From positions 1-37,301 of IMG/VR virus record IMGVR_UViG_3300010883_000140: a stretch of 37,301 nt of DNA; one strand, 5' to 3'. This document shows positions 24,846-33,183 of this stretch, piece by piece. The notes below the pieces were generated by a model, which worked only from the letters and a program-made list of their open reading frames with translations, was not told where the DNA came from and made no database searches. The stretch is from a virus. How positions within the stretch are numbered: the first letter of the stretch is position 1; each line of letters starts with the position of its first letter. The translations under genes and the position numbers were made by a program.

Positions 24846-26786
24846 ATGCTGCCCACAAACTATCAGCAGTTCATACACACGTCCCGATACGCCCGATGGA
24901 GCGACGAAGATGGTCGTAGAGAATCTTGGCCTGAGACGGTTGGTAGGTACTTCGATTTCTTTGAAGACCACCTAAAAACTAAATGCGACTTTCAGGTACC
25001 TATGTGCGAATTGCTTGAAGCAAGACACGCTGTGGAAAGCCTGATGGTTATGCCTTCGATGCGCTGCCTGATGACTGCAGGGCCTGCTTTGGCTCGCGAC
25101 CATGTTGCTGCATACAATTGTGCCTATACACCGATCGATAACTTGAGAGCGTTTGACGAAACTCTTTTCATTCTAATGTGTGCAACGGGTGTGGGCTTTT
25201 CAGTTGAGCGGCAGTATGTCAGCCAGCTTCCCGTTGTTCCAGCGGCGCTTTCCGATAGCAACGAAGTAATTGAAGTACGGGACTCAAAGCGCGGATGGGC
25301 TGAAGCTCTCCGTAAGCTGATAGCAACTTTATATGAAGGGCGTATACCTAAGTGGGACACACGTAAGGTTCGTGGCCCAGGCGAGCGGCTTAAGACTATG
25401 GGCGGCCGAGCAAGTGGACCTGCTCCGTTGATAGAGTTATTCCAGTACGTAGTAAAAATGCTCCAGGGAGCAGTTGGGCGTAAGCTCACTAGTATAGAGT
25501 GCCACGATATTGTTTGTAAGATCGGTGAATGTGTAGTCGTTGGCGGGGTACGTCGCTCGGCTCTAATCAGCTTGTCTAACTTGAGCGACCATCGTATGCG
25601 GGATGCTAAGGCAGGCGAGTGGTGGGTGCTCGAGCCTCAGCGTAAGCTCAGCAATAACTCCGTGGCATATACTGAGACTCCAGAAGTTGGGCAGTTCATG
25701 GCTGAATGGCAAGCCCTGTATGCTTCTAAGTCGGGAGAGCGTGGAATATTTAACCGAGAGGCTGCTTGGAAGCAGGCAATGTCATCAGGTAGGCGTAACG
25801 GTTTTTATTCCGACGGAGCTCTCATAAATCCGCCGTTCCCAGGCCGTACTAAGATAGATTTTGGATGTAACCCTTGCTGCGAGATTATCCTACGCCCAAA
25901 AGAGTTCTGTAACCTTAGCACCATTGTAGTGCGGGCAGAAGACACCATGGAAACGCTGCACGAAAAGGCTCGTATAGCGACGATCCTAGGCACGTGGCAA
26001 AGCACGGTGACCGACTTCAGGTACCTGACTAAGAAGTGGTCTGACAACTGTAAGGAAGAACGTCTGCTAGGCGTTAGCATGACGGGCATTATGTCCAACC
26101 CGCTCCTGTATGAGATGGACGGCTTAGCAGGCAGACTGGAGGAGCTACTTGAGACTTGCATAGGCACCAACGAAGAGCTTGCACCTCGGATCGGCATACC
26201 GGTTAGCGCAGCAATCACTTGTGTAAAGCCAGAAGGAACTGCTAGCCAGATGGTAGCAGCAGCTAGTGGCATTCATGCGGCTTACGCAGAATTTTATATC
26301 CGGCGGGTTCGTCAGGATGTTAAAGACCCGTTAACCACTATGCTGATCGATCAAGGCGTTCCATACGAAGTCGACATAATGAACAGTGAGAACATTGTCT
26401 TTGAGTTTCCACAGCGCTCCGACGAAGGTTCTGTGCTTCGTAATGATATGACAGCTATTCAACAGCTCGAGCATTGGAAAGTGTTCCAAAACCATTGGTG
26501 CGAACACAAGCCTTCGATTACTGTTTATGTCCGTGAGAAGGAATGGCCTTCAGTTGGTGGTTGGGTATATGACAACTTTGACGACATGAGTGGAGTTTCG
26601 TTCTTGCCTCATTCTGACCACACATACAAGCAAGCACCGTACGAAGAGATCGACGAAGAGGCTTACAACCAACGAGTTGCTGATATGCCAGAAATCATTT
26701 GGTCTCAGCTCGGTAGGTACGAGCGAGAGGATAACACCAGCAGTTCGCATGAGTTAGCTTGTACTGCTGGTGGCTGTGAGATTTAG
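24846..26786 (+). CDS. Monomeric class II (adenosylcobalamin-dependent) ribonucleotide reductase
   Basis: The 646-residue protein matches monomeric B12-dependent ribonucleoside triphosphate reductases such as the Lactobacillus leichmannii enzyme (739 residues). Key residues align by spacing: C92 in YNCAYT (L. leichmannii C119), N342-P-C344-C-E346 (N406, C408, E410, the radical site), C355 eleven residues later (C419), and a C-terminal C639/C644 pair (C731/C736) that would re-reduce the active site. The usual NPCGE motif reads NPCCE. It makes dNTPs for phage DNA and implies that the host has or imports B12. The gene ends one base from the oppositely oriented next gene. Confidence 0.92.
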   Translation: MLPTNYQQFIHTSRYARWSDEDGRRESWPETVGRYFDFFEDHLKTKCDFQVPMCELLEARHAVESLMVMPSMRCLMTAGPALARDHVAAYNCAYTPIDNLRAFDETLFILMCATGVGFSVERQYVSQLPVVPAALSDSNEVIEVRDSKRGWAEALRKLIATLYEGRIPKWDTRKVRGPGERLKTMGGRASGPAPLIELFQYVVKMLQGAVGRKLTSIECHDIVCKIGECVVVGGVRRSALISLSNLSDHRMRDAKAGEWWVLEPQRKLSNNSVAYTETPEVGQFMAEWQALYASKSGERGIFNREAAWKQAMSSGRRNGFYSDGALINPPFPGRTKIDFGCNPCCEIILRPKEFCNLSTIVVRAEDTMETLHEKARIATILGTWQSTVTDFRYLTKKWSDNCKEERLLGVSMTGIMSNPLLYEMDGLAGRLEELLETCIGTNEELAPRIGIPVSAAITCVKPEGTASQMVAAASGIHAAYAEFYIRRVRQDVKDPLTTMLIDQGVPYEVDIMNSENIVFEFPQRSDEGSVLRNDMTAIQQLEHWKVFQNHWCEHKPSITVYVREKEWPSVGGWVYDNFDDMSGVSFLPHSDHTYKQAPYEEIDEEAYNQRVADMPEIIWSQLGRYEREDNTSSSHELACTAGGCEI

Positions 26787-29964: not shown

Positions 29965-30116
29965 CTGACTTTAATATGAACCACGACGATACGCTTAAAT
30001 ATATGATAGCATCAGAGCTATCGACACTCGATGTTATAAACGCTTTGGAAGTGGATCATGAGACTTTGGTTCTGATTCGTAAGATCAACGAAGCGGGAAA
30101 TACTAGAGTACAATAG
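29961..30116 (+). CDS. 51-residue miniprotein, second gene of plus-strand pair
   Basis: The short frame begins with ATG overlapping the previous stop (ATGA) and ends at the TAG 30114-30116. Product: an acidic N-terminus (TDFNMNHDDTLKYM) and helices SELSTLDVINALE and DHETLVLIRKINEAG. The pattern resembles small helical phage proteins; no family is recognised. Its last 14 bases overlap, tail to tail, the end of the nuclease gene on the other strand. The stop-start coupling and the strong promoter ahead of the pair support it being real. Confidence 0.6.
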   Translation: MTDFNMNHDDTLKYMIASELSTLDVINALEVDHETLVLIRKINEAGNTRVQ

Positions 30117-30576
30117 CTCCATATGCCGCAGCATCTACTATAGCACGGGCCTTGGAGCGAGGATCGATCACCGCAAGCTGAGCCAAATCAGTTTCGAGCA
30201 AACCGGCTTTGATATCCTCTATGTGTTGACTGCTGATAAGATATCGACAGGCGTCAGCGTCTTTACCCACTTGCAATAGCACGAATATACGAGCGCCCGC
30301 AAGCAACCGTCTCCTATGCCAAGGGGGTTGCTTCGGGCGGAATTTAACTTGGATTTCTGTATTTGCATATACAGGACGATAAGCACACTTCAGCTCTATA
30401 AAGAACTGAGTACCTACAAGCATTCCCTCAACATCAGGCCAACCAGGACCAACGGCGTTTTCCACACGTGTCATATGGAGATCAGTTCTGTAGGATATTG
30501 ACGCCTTGTCCAGCCACTTCCAAAGTACGCTTTCAGTAGTGGCTAGACTTGGGTTGGGATTAGGATTCGTCAACAT
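30103..30576 (-). CDS. PD-(D/E)XK nuclease
   Basis: The 157-residue protein shows the core PD-(D/E)XK nuclease pattern: a glutamate in the N-terminal helix (E15), GPGWPDVEGML (D48), and FFIELK (E61, K63), then a basic KFRPKQPPWHRRR segment. This layout is typical of phage VRR-NUC or Holliday-junction-type nucleases. It might process recombination or replication intermediates. It overlaps the KOW-like gene by 17 bases. Confidence 0.8.
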   Translation of the reverse strand: MLTNPNPNPSLATTESVLWKWLDKASISYRTDLHMTRVENAVGPGWPDVEGMLVGTQFFIELKCAYRPVYANTEIQVKFRPKQPPWHRRRLLAGARIFVLLQVGKDADACRYLISSQHIEDIKAGLLETDLAQLAVIDPRSKARAIVDAAAYGAIVL

Positions 30577-30742
30577 AGGGTACTAGCTGGCTTTCGTTAA
30601 AGATATGCAAAGCACCGGCTACTTCCTCCGCAGTGCATTCAACCACAACACGTGTCTGGCCAGCTTTGTTTTGGAACACGGATCGGACTTCTCCAGGCCA
30701 GCGATAGCCTTTTGCCTTCTGAACTTTGTCTCCAACTTTCAT
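30560..30742 (-). CDS. KOW-like small protein
   Basis: The start at 30742 overlaps the dCMP deaminase stop (ATGA); the longer frame to 30895 runs inside the deaminase gene and is unlikely. The 60-residue product (MKVGDKVQKAKGYRWPGEVR, then NKAGQTRVVVEC and GALHIFNESQLVPY) matches a conserved small phage/alphaproteobacterial family with a KOW-like beta-barrel. The role is unknown, possibly RNA or DNA contact. Confidence 0.7.
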   Translation of the reverse strand: MKVGDKVQKAKGYRWPGEVRSVFQNKAGQTRVVVECTAEEVAGALHIFNESQLVPYVDES

Positions 30743-31185
30743 GCTTCCGTATCCAAACTGAAAAGCGTCAAGGATACACCTGATTCTCTCAAAAGTAAGC
30801 GAGATAGCATCTGATCTGCTATCCAGCGACTGTCCTGTCGTATTGTAGGACTTACCACACGAGTAATTCCCTTCTGTATAATAGCTGTTGCACAATTTGG
30901 ACAGGGGAACTTTGTACAGTACAGCGTCCAGCCTGATATGTCTACAGCTGAGTTAAGCATGGCATTCATTTCAGCGTGTACCATAAGCTTGTTCTTGAGG
31001 TCCTTGTCGTTGAGACGTTCCGCAGTGTCCTCGATACTACGCGGAAATCCGTTGAAACCCCAAGACACTTGACGACGATCAGGAGATACAAGAAGAGCTC
31101 CAACTCCTTCGTCTAGGTCTTTAGACCAAGTAGCCACATTTTTAGTGACTATTTCCATCATACGCCAGTCCCACTTATCCATCAT
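30739..31185 (-). CDS. dCMP deaminase
   Basis: The start at 31185 overlaps the previous stop (ATGA); an in-frame ATG at 31221 lies inside the previous gene. The 148-residue protein has the cytidine/deoxycytidylate deaminase zinc site: HAE (H70, E72) and CPNC (C95, C98). It turns dCMP into dUMP, supplying dTMP synthesis. In T4-type phages the same enzyme (cd) works beside dCTPase and dCMP hydroxymethylase, and here the adjacent upstream genes encode those two types of enzyme. Confidence 0.88.
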   Translation of the reverse strand: MMDKWDWRMMEIVTKNVATWSKDLDEGVGALLVSPDRRQVSWGFNGFPRSIEDTAERLNDKDLKNKLMVHAEMNAMLNSAVDISGWTLYCTKFPCPNCATAIIQKGITRVVSPTIRQDSRWIADQMLSRLLLRESGVSLTLFSLDTEA

Positions 31186-32015
31186 ACAACAACCCCGGGC
31201 ATAGGATTCCACACAGTCCAAGGTACACGGTCGCTCAGCCGTTTAACATGATGGACATATGGCTCTGGGCCGCGTTCAATCATACCAACTGTGTACCCCG
31301 GCAAGTTGGGCTCAACGCTGAGCCATTCCGTGCTGTTAAGGCTATGTACCGTGTCGTCCCAATGAGGCTCGTATATATGAGCATGCGCAAGGGTAAAGTG
31401 CAACGTGCCAGGCGCTAAGCCACAGGTGGAAGCAATAGCATCTACGGTCAATGCATAACTCATAACGTCGTAAGGTAAACCGACGAAGACGTCAGAAGAG
31501 CGTAAGAAGACGCTGCAGTGGAGCTGGTTTTCCGACCTTGTTAGACTGAAGCCTACTGGGCATGGGATGTTCTTCGGTTGCGTTGGCGAACCTAACCCGT
31601 CGCTGTGGGGGTCCCAGGCAGATATGTATAGCTGTCTGTTGGTTGGATTTCCTTTCAGCTCGCTGATCGCCTCGGCTATTTGGTCGCGTCCGAAATGACG
31701 TCTCCATCTGTACCCGTATGCGGTTTCCAATTTGCCATCTTCCACGAAATCCTGCCATATCTTCGGTGCTTTCGCTAGTATGAAGGCTGGGTCTTGAGTA
31801 CCCATAAATTGCCACGCGACTTCAGCAGCCGCCACTCTAGGGAAGTATCTCCTGTTGCCCGCGACCGGAAGCTTGCCACTGCTTATGTCGAGCTTAAAGG
31901 AATACCCACCTTCCAGCATCTTTATCTTGACGCCAGTTCGGGTGTTAACCTCTTCCCTAGCTCCAGTCGTGAAGCTAGAGAGGAGCGCTTTGTATTGATG
32001 TGCGAAGCTATGCAT
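31182..32015 (-). CDS. Thymidylate-synthase-family enzyme, probable dCMP hydroxymethylase (or methylase)
   Basis: The start at 32015 lies within the last bases of the previous gene and gives 277 residues, near the usual ThyA length; an ATG at 32075 would overlap more. Compared with E. coli ThyA: active-site cysteine C152 (C146), RSSD at 172-175, H213 and Y215 (H207, Y209), all at matching spacing. Position 183 is Asp in GLPYDVMSYA, where thymidylate synthases have Asn (N177). T4 dCMP hydroxymethylase has Asp there, and the same change makes L. casei ThyA act on dCMP. The residue after the cysteine is Pro rather than His. Substrate dCMP is therefore likely; hydroxymethyl versus methyl product cannot be decided. 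Confidence 0.8.
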   Translation of the reverse strand: MHSFAHQYKALLSSFTTGAREEVNTRTGVKIKMLEGGYSFKLDISSGKLPVAGNRRYFPRVAAAEVAWQFMGTQDPAFILAKAPKIWQDFVEDGKLETAYGYRWRRHFGRDQIAEAISELKGNPTNRQLYISAWDPHSDGLGSPTQPKNIPCPVGFSLTRSENQLHCSVFLRSSDVFVGLPYDVMSYALTVDAIASTCGLAPGTLHFTLAHAHIYEPHWDDTVHSLNSTEWLSVEPNLPGYTVGMIERGPEPYVHHVKRLSDRVPWTVWNPMPGVVV

Positions 32016-33120
32016 TGGCTGCTTCCACGACCAGTTGTGTAATAATCTGCTTAGCAATATAGTTGGTATTGTCACGCAAGTCTTCTAGGGTTCCGTTGTT
32101 GTCAATACACCAGTCAGCATCAGCCATTGTCACTGAGCATGAGTCAGCAGACTCAGGAGGCAGCACGCTAGACCGGTCGACCCATATAATAGCATCGAAC
32201 AGCCCAGCTTCTTTGCCAGCTGCTAGTTCTTCGGAATGACGTAACCCGCAGTACACGTCATTATCTTGGAAGATAGCTCGAGCAAGAGCTGTTTTGTCAG
32301 GGGTGTTAAACGCGGCAATTTGTTCGTACCAGATTTGGCGATAGCTTCCGCGATCCTCGAAACAGTCCCTAGCACTATCGTAATAAGGAGGAGCTTGCCC
32401 TTCACACCCGTCAGCTTCAAACTGGTTGGTCATTCCTTTAAAGAATGGCATCATGACATGCTCTGCGCAGAACATGCTACTGGAAGTGAATTGCAATCCA
32501 TATTCCTTCTTCAGAATATCACACACCGTGTCTTTGCCATGCCTTGCGTGCCCGATAACCAAGAACTTCCGCCTAGGATTGCGATCGGCGCCCACCTTGC
32601 GGCGAGGCACGTTGAGATGATCTGCCGCCTTAATCTGGATATTCATGGAAGCTTCGTTGATTGGACAATTCAGCTGAGCCTTTAGGTCGGCCAGCCAAGT
32701 TAGTTCTTCTTTGGTAACTGTGAGATACGGCGCGAGATCGGGTGGCGTCCAGCCTTCAGGTTTGATCGCATCAAAGCCATTGCTACTTCGTTTAGCAACT
32801 GATCCACGTACCTTCGCCATATTGCGGTCATGCACTTCGCCAAAAACACCGTTGACATTAATACCCATTTCAACAAGCGCACCAAGAGCAACATAGGTAA
32901 GGTCGATAAGACCGTCGACGGCTTGTTCAAAGTTTCCTTCCTGGAAAGCAGTATCTGTTTCTACCAGCTCCTCTTCAAGGTGAAGGACACGAAAATCAGC
33001 TCGTTCGTCCGAAAGAATTGTCGGTTCGTCTGGGATGGTTAGTCCAATCAAGTCACGATTGAACCGCTCAACCATGCTATGGTATTGGAATAAAGGATTG
33101 TTCATTTTTTGCATGTCCAT
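32008..33120 (-). CDS. Fused MazG-type NTP pyrophosphohydrolase and T4 gp1-like dNMP kinase
   Basis: The start is placed at the ATG at 33120 (ATGs at 33114 and 33105 are possible; a 33153 start lacks support). Residues 40-110 show an all-alpha MazG-like site: HLEEELVETD (E49-E54), then D69 and D73 in a DGLIDLTYVALG helix. Residues from about 185 form a P-loop kinase with GHARHGKDT (190-198), CFEDRGSYRQIWYEQI, YCGLRHSEEL, WVDRSSVLPPES and DADWCIDNNGTLEDL, which match the phage dNMP kinase family of T4 gp1. T4 uses separate gp56 (dCTP/dUTP hydrolysis) and gp1 (hmdCMP kinase); here both activities would sit in one chain upstream of the ThyA-family gene. Confidence 0.82.
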   Translation of the reverse strand: MDMQKMNNPLFQYHSMVERFNRDLIGLTIPDEPTILSDERADFRVLHLEEELVETDTAFQEGNFEQAVDGLIDLTYVALGALVEMGINVNGVFGEVHDRNMAKVRGSVAKRSSNGFDAIKPEGWTPPDLAPYLTVTKEELTWLADLKAQLNCPINEASMNIQIKAADHLNVPRRKVGADRNPRRKFLVIGHARHGKDTVCDILKKEYGLQFTSSSMFCAEHVMMPFFKGMTNQFEADGCEGQAPPYYDSARDCFEDRGSYRQIWYEQIAAFNTPDKTALARAIFQDNDVYCGLRHSEELAAGKEAGLFDAIIWVDRSSVLPPESADSCSVTMADADWCIDNNGTLEDLRDNTNYIAKQIITQLVVEAANA

Positions 33121-33183
33121 AGTCCTATCTTTCTGTCTGGATGTATGAGGCATATTGTCAGTCGTAGTCGGGTAAGTAACCCA

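Follow-up and report, generated by a model that had tools for sequence, protein, structure and literature searches.

A phage operon with a fused MazG-kinase gene probably encodes an Xp12-type 5-methylcytosine nucleotide pathway

Which modified base, if any, would a phage make with three overlapping genes for a fused MazG-type pyrophosphohydrolase and P-loop kinase, a ThyA-family enzyme and a dCMP-type deaminase? We addressed this question on a 37,301-base virus record (the window), which is probably a fragment because the genomes of its known relatives run to 60–65 kb. A sequence-only reading had proposed a compact T4-like route to 5-hydroxymethyl- (or 5-methyl-) cytosine. Our analysis supports a T4-like scheme in which the pool is cleared, C5 is modified and the nucleotide is rephosphorylated, but the base placed in parentheses moves to the fore: with a probability of roughly 0.7, we favour an Xp12-type 5-methylcytosine nucleotide pathway, in a variant with an unusual fusion.

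The fusion (32008–33153; Pfam PRA-PH, phrog_38514/139), the ThyA homologue (31182–32015) and the deaminase (30739–31185) are intact and all lie on the minus strand; Pfam, PHROG and the gene overlaps bear out their earlier description as three adjacent, overlapping genes. The fusion and ThyA genes share 8 nt if ThyA begins, as is probable, at ATG 32015, and the end of the ThyA gene and the deaminase ATG (31185) share the sequence ATGA; both overlaps make translational coupling likely. A 60-aa ORF (30560–30742, minus strand; MKVGDKVQKAKG...), whose start overlaps the deaminase stop, and a nuclease-like gene (30103–30576, minus strand; phrog_2165) prolong the overlapping series. The latter carries a PD-(D/E)XK-like motif (PDVEG...FFIELK) and forms the conserved 3′ end of the operon. 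Elsewhere in the window, a phiJL001 gp84-like hub, BR0599 and Rcc01698 tail proteins and a B12-dependent ribonucleotide reductase are suggestive of a siphovirus infecting Alphaproteobacteria. The reductase (24846–26786, plus strand) is of class II, and the RDJL3 annotation likewise lists an adenosylcobalamin-dependent enzyme.

The fusion starts at ATG 33153 or, more likely, at ATG 33120, and comprises a MazG domain (aa ~30–141), a disordered linker and a P-loop kinase domain (aa ~196–375). Consistent with this architecture, the AlphaFold2 model (pLDDT 83.6) has two confident domains with a low-confidence linker between them. The PRA-PH/MazG match at aa 34–111 (E = 2.7e-13) reaches 50.6 bits against a cut-off of 21.3, and the top structural match of this domain in Foldseek is DR2231, whose structure was solved with dUTP analogues. 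Comparison of the kinase domain (P-loop GHARHGKDTV) with T4 gp1, as proposed earlier, held up: it matches phrog_139 dNMP kinase (E = 2e-12) and the gp1 structure 1dek (Foldseek E = 7e-4, probability 1.00). Dephospho-CoA kinase 2grj slightly outscores 1dek as a structural match, Pfam DNMK gives 14.7 bits, under its cut-off of 27.1, and a sequence search of the PDB with the kinase profile returned weak P-loop matches only. The catalytic residues of both domains are kept across 22 sequences, with EExxE, D80/D84 and GxxxHGKDT as conserved motifs and E61, E62, E65, D80 and D84 as the metal-binding acidic residues. The fusion is predicted to combine in a single protein what T4 divides between gp56 and gp1; we infer its substrates, dCTP and 5-methyl-dCMP, from the logic of the pathway only.

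This fusion had been thought undescribed and, in line with that, our literature search found no paper describing its two domains. It is, however, already present in sequenced phages and hence not new to databases, where it corresponds to PHROG 38514, of unknown function. Nine GenBank records, representing seven phages that all have Rhodobacteraceae hosts (RDJL Phi 1, 2, 3 and 6, RcSimone-Hastad, RcRudolph and Tedan), cover at least 80% of it at one place. Public labels look wrong (L002 19977–21023; L003 21135–22025): the fusion is named ‘Cof hydrolase’ (e.g. in RDJL Phi 1) or ‘MazG-like’, and the ThyA homologue is entered either as thymidylate synthase, with no qualifier, or as ‘ThyX-like thymidylate synthase’. 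RDJL Phi 1, RcSimone-Hastad and RDJL3 share the order fusion, thyA, deaminase, DHFR, nuclease, with one additional small gene between thyA and deaminase in RDJL3. More broadly, two viral-contig scans with HMM annotation yielded, after removal of known duplicates, 53 loci, among which MazG occurs in 51, the nuclease in 50, the deaminase in 49 and DHFR in 38. About 50 loci keep the order MazG / ThyA / deaminase / (DHFR) / nuclease; together with the nine GenBank records and the 339 fusion residues spanned by PHROG 38514, this rules out a chance arrangement.

The partner of MazG is more variable, being a kinase in 25 of the 53 loci and another domain in 22. Mapped onto the ThyA tree, the partner shows four changes, which we read as up to four, a single origin of each partner remaining compatible with the tree (AU p 0.19). 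In Bradleyvirinae, MazG is joined instead to a conserved domain of ~90 aa with no Pfam match (AXL1 gp64; L005 5926–6696). No gp1-like kinase was found elsewhere in Bradleyvirinae genomes, so the kinase step there would fall to the host or to an unrelated protein. Achromobacter phage JWX encodes MazG and another protein as separate genes and has neither DHFR nor, in our search of its genome, a gp1-like kinase. In three loci of the Achromobacter Steinhofvirus type (L011, L183, L132), the cassette lacks DHFR, and a DUF6378-like gene stands on its own between those for MazG and ThyA.

We turn next to the ThyA homologue. It matches Pfam Thymidylat_synt (E = 4e-43) and scores under the NCBIfam thymidylate synthase equivalog cut-offs. 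In the numbering of the 297-aa ORF, it has the catalytic Cys172, Asn169 at −3 of this Cys, Thr118-Ala-Tyr120 and, as had been noted from the sequence, Asp at the position of E. coli N177 (Asp203). With Pro at the E. coli His147 position, both Asn177 and His147 of canonical thymidylate synthase are absent. An Asp at N177 is generally taken to identify a cytosine-specific ThyA, and changing N177 to Asp in thymidylate synthase gives a dCMP methylase that makes 5mdCMP (PMC8670742). In MetaGPA, the features that best distinguished ThyAs of cytosine-modified contigs were Asp177 and an altered residue 147, Asp177 ThyAs were found mostly on such contigs, and ThyA co-occurred with PF01503 (MazG) and PF00383 (deaminase), often specifically on modified contigs (PMC8670742). 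The Asp thus supports a cytosine nucleotide, dCMP, as the substrate, as had been claimed. It is present in 16 of 16 loci (L012–L027) collected via the MazG domain; its invariance in the ThyA-pattern scan was rejected as independent evidence, since the search pattern itself contained Asp177. No second ThyA, ThyX or C5-DNA methyltransferase was found in the 12–13 records tested, and a post-replicative C5-methyltransferase was discarded as a source of 5mC.

Such an enzyme could also be a T4-type dCMP hydroxymethylase, in which case the DNA would contain 5-hydroxymethylcytosine and the loss of DHFR in the window's clade would mark a switch from methylation to hydroxymethylation. Several features would fit: a dNMP kinase and a pyrophosphohydrolase accompany the enzyme, as in T4, the window ThyA shares the Asp at T4 position 179 (= N177), and, two positions ahead of the catalytic Tyr, it has Thr118 where hydroxymethylases carry Ser/Thr (many relatives show Ala, Gly or Asn instead), thereby retaining S/T-x-Y, one half of the hydroxymethylase signature. 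In T4 gp42, however, the water that attacks is activated by an Asp (or Glu) at −3 of the catalytic Cys; the D145N variant yields no 5hm-dCMP, and the C-terminal tail that seals thymidylate synthase is lacking (PMC6400193). The window enzyme has Asn169 in place of this Asp/Glu, and its tail (WNPMPGVVV), which lines up with the YDPHPGI segment of E. coli thymidylate synthase, is mostly retained, stopping ~4 residues short of the E. coli end. It also differs from T4 at the W83 position, with Phe against the Val of T4. The motif N-[VIAT]-P-C-P occurs in nearly all cassette-type ThyA rows with or without DHFR (exceptions read, L126 and L138; L134 left out), as NIPCP in the window and NVPCP in AXL1, which also have the LPYD signature in common. 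The alignment and structure prediction suggested earlier spoke against close kinship with gp42: identity is 22% over 182 aa, against 29% over 278 aa with thymidylate synthases, and the latter are the top PDB matches of the model (pLDDT 94.6). Likewise, the ThyA tree places the window with L091 and L092 (97/83) within a larger RDJL-type clade (97/91) that also holds the DHFR-less Tedan; T4 gp42 falls well outside this clade, at the end of a very long branch. No glucosyltransferase was recognised among the window proteins scanned. Because of the Asn at −3, the mostly kept tail, the closer relation to thymidylate synthases and the nearest understood lineage, that of the 5mC phage Xp12, 5-hydroxymethylcytosine is not supported as the leading product and the chemistry is probably methylation; we regard a T4-type hydroxymethylase as unlikely.

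The folate product bears on the same choice. A methylase releases dihydrofolate; a hydroxymethylase releases tetrahydrofolate and has no need of DHFR. Finding DHFR in 38 of the 53 loci thus speaks for methylation in the family as a whole. This, the strongest argument from context, is missing in the window's own clade, as the window and its closest kin L091 and L092, and also Tedan, L098 and L102, lack DHFR; searches of whole records found none in that clade, Tedan, L098, L102 or JWX. DHFR presence changes five times on the ThyA tree, and no signature-set residue separates DHFR-bearing from DHFR-less relatives, which speaks against a switch in chemistry. With these residues unchanged although DHFR was lost from the window's three-row clade, the DHFR of the host would be the simplest source. 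The place of DHFR is taken in the window by the 60-aa ORF, for which no family match was found. Different small ORFs stand there across the DHFR-less clade (window 30560–30742; L091 7327–7620; L092 near 7316).

At the far end of the operon lies the nuclease; of 50,697 phage records, just 70 contain homologues of it, and almost all of these come from host genera whose phages have the cassette. It is not exclusive to the cassette: five Brevundimonas phage records have a partial homologue, and the one examined has no ThyA nearby. T4 denA and denB attack unmodified cytosine DNA; by analogy, the nuclease is a candidate for such a role and could act on unmodified cytosine DNA.

The deaminase matches dCMP_cyt_deam_1 (E = 3e-16) and phrog_174 and carries the zinc motifs H-A-E and P-C-x-x-C (PCPNC), in agreement with the dCMP-type deaminase first proposed. 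A role confined to the provision of dUMP fits less well. Infection by Xp12 induces a folate-dependent dCMP methyltransferase (PMC8543423) and a 5-methyl-dCTP-specific deaminase, with dTTP made independently of the host (PMC12088426). Given this precedent, the window deaminase is predicted to act more likely on 5-methyl-dC nucleotides (5-methyl-dCTP or 5-methyl-dCMP), and perhaps also on dCMP. Trp128 of the XP-12 deaminase, which lies beside the 5-methyl group, was set aside as evidence for a 5-methyl substrate: the window and cassette enzymes have Trp, but so do 7 of 8 control deaminases.

Taken together, the MazG domain would hydrolyse dCTP (perhaps dUTP too) to dCMP, emptying the pool of unmodified dCTP. 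With methylene-tetrahydrofolate, the ThyA homologue would, judging from its residues and kinship, convert dCMP to 5-methyl-dCMP and dihydrofolate; the fused gp1-like kinase domain would phosphorylate 5-methyl-dCMP, and host NDP kinase would complete 5-methyl-dCTP, which the phage DNA polymerase would take instead of dCTP. As in Xp12, the deaminase may turn 5-methyl-dCTP (or 5-methyl-dCMP) into dTTP (or dTMP), so that one methylation step would feed both pyrimidines, and the virion DNA would contain 5mC, most likely throughout. Our more specific proposal is tentative and somewhat doubtful: a bifunctional fusion that both converts dCTP to dCMP and phosphorylates 5-methyl-dCMP, passing nucleotides to and from the ThyA-type methylase of the overlapping gene, with the deaminase acting on 5-methyl-dCTP to give dTTP. 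If true, one compact operon would rewire both pyrimidine pools with little host help, and the phages of this clade would do so with no DHFR of their own.

The same reactions might instead supply thymidylate and leave the DNA unmodified, dCMP methylation and deamination giving dTMP, MazG cleaning dUTP and the kinase acting on dTMP. The conserved deaminase and the dUTP analogues of the DR2231 structure would agree with this, and T4 gp1 also takes dTMP as a substrate. Against it, these are the reactions of Xp12, whose DNA is wholly 5mC by LC-MS (PMC7653180), and the MetaGPA association ties Asp177 to modified contigs. Moreover, AXL1 DNA resists 26 of 31 restriction enzymes, including most with G/C in their sites, and three of the five cutters have A/T-only sites (PMC9206674). 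We consider thymidylate supply alone improbable. Still less probable is that 5mC or 5hmC is a mere intermediate, which an enzyme encoded beyond the 37-kb record turns into another derivative: the missing part of a probable ~60–65-kb genome would leave room for one, and some modified contigs carry a carbamoyltransferase together with ThyA and MazG, but methyl groups are hard to extend without an oxygenase, and no candidate came up, either among those window proteins that were scanned or in the annotation viewed for relatives.

Complete replacement by 5mC has reportedly been documented for one phage, Xp12 (1968), and its methylase and 5-methyl-dCTP deaminase activities are said to have been measured in 1976–1982. 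Our literature search found no published gene assignment for these activities, which PMC7653180 states is to appear elsewhere. The base and reactions have long been known (Xp12, 1970s); the new elements are the assignment of genes, the fusion and the breadth of the distribution. No viral contig matched an Xp12 primer taken from PMC8670742, and Xp12 (Bosavirus) is represented here by Stenotrophomonas phage AXL1, which like Xp12 belongs to Bradleyvirinae, so that the link rests on AXL1 and the papers. For the Xp12 genome (MT664984) we expect an operon of like order, with the NVPCP/LPYD signature. The gene order of AXL1 is near-identical to that of Xp12, and its authors were unable to name modification genes past a thymidylate-synthesis pair (PMC9206674); the cassette supplies the candidates. 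A literature search likewise found no base analysis of RDJL-type virion DNA. With a conserved operon in about 50 loci, including several isolated phages with cultured hosts, the Xp12 gene assignment becomes testable, and we predict a broad occurrence of pre-replicative 5mC phages among proteobacteria. The operon also offers enzymes for 5-methyl-dCTP production, and Asn versus Asp at −3, the tail and a DHFR neighbour offer a rule for sorting D177 ThyAs into methylases and hydroxymethylases.

Among known systems, T4 shares the logic of dCTP removal, dCMP C5 modification, rephosphorylation and deamination (gp56, gp42, gp1 and Cd), but it adds a hydroxymethyl rather than the methyl group predicted here, and its gp56 and gp1 are separate proteins. 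AXL1 resembles the window in its cytosine-type ThyA (~46% identical, with the N-V/I-P-C-P and LPYDV signature) and in its order, with MazG upstream and deaminase and nuclease downstream of ThyA; it differs in joining MazG to an unnamed alpha-rich domain rather than a kinase and in having DHFR in the operon. The Roseobacter (RDJL Phi 1/2/3/6), Rhodobacter (RcSimone-Hastad, RcRudolph) and Ruegeria (Tedan) phages carry the same fusion (38–46% identity), a ThyA 43–59% identical, the deaminase and, where examined, the same operon order and nuclease, while RDJL Phi 1, RDJL3 and RcSimone-Hastad, unlike the window, have DHFR as well.
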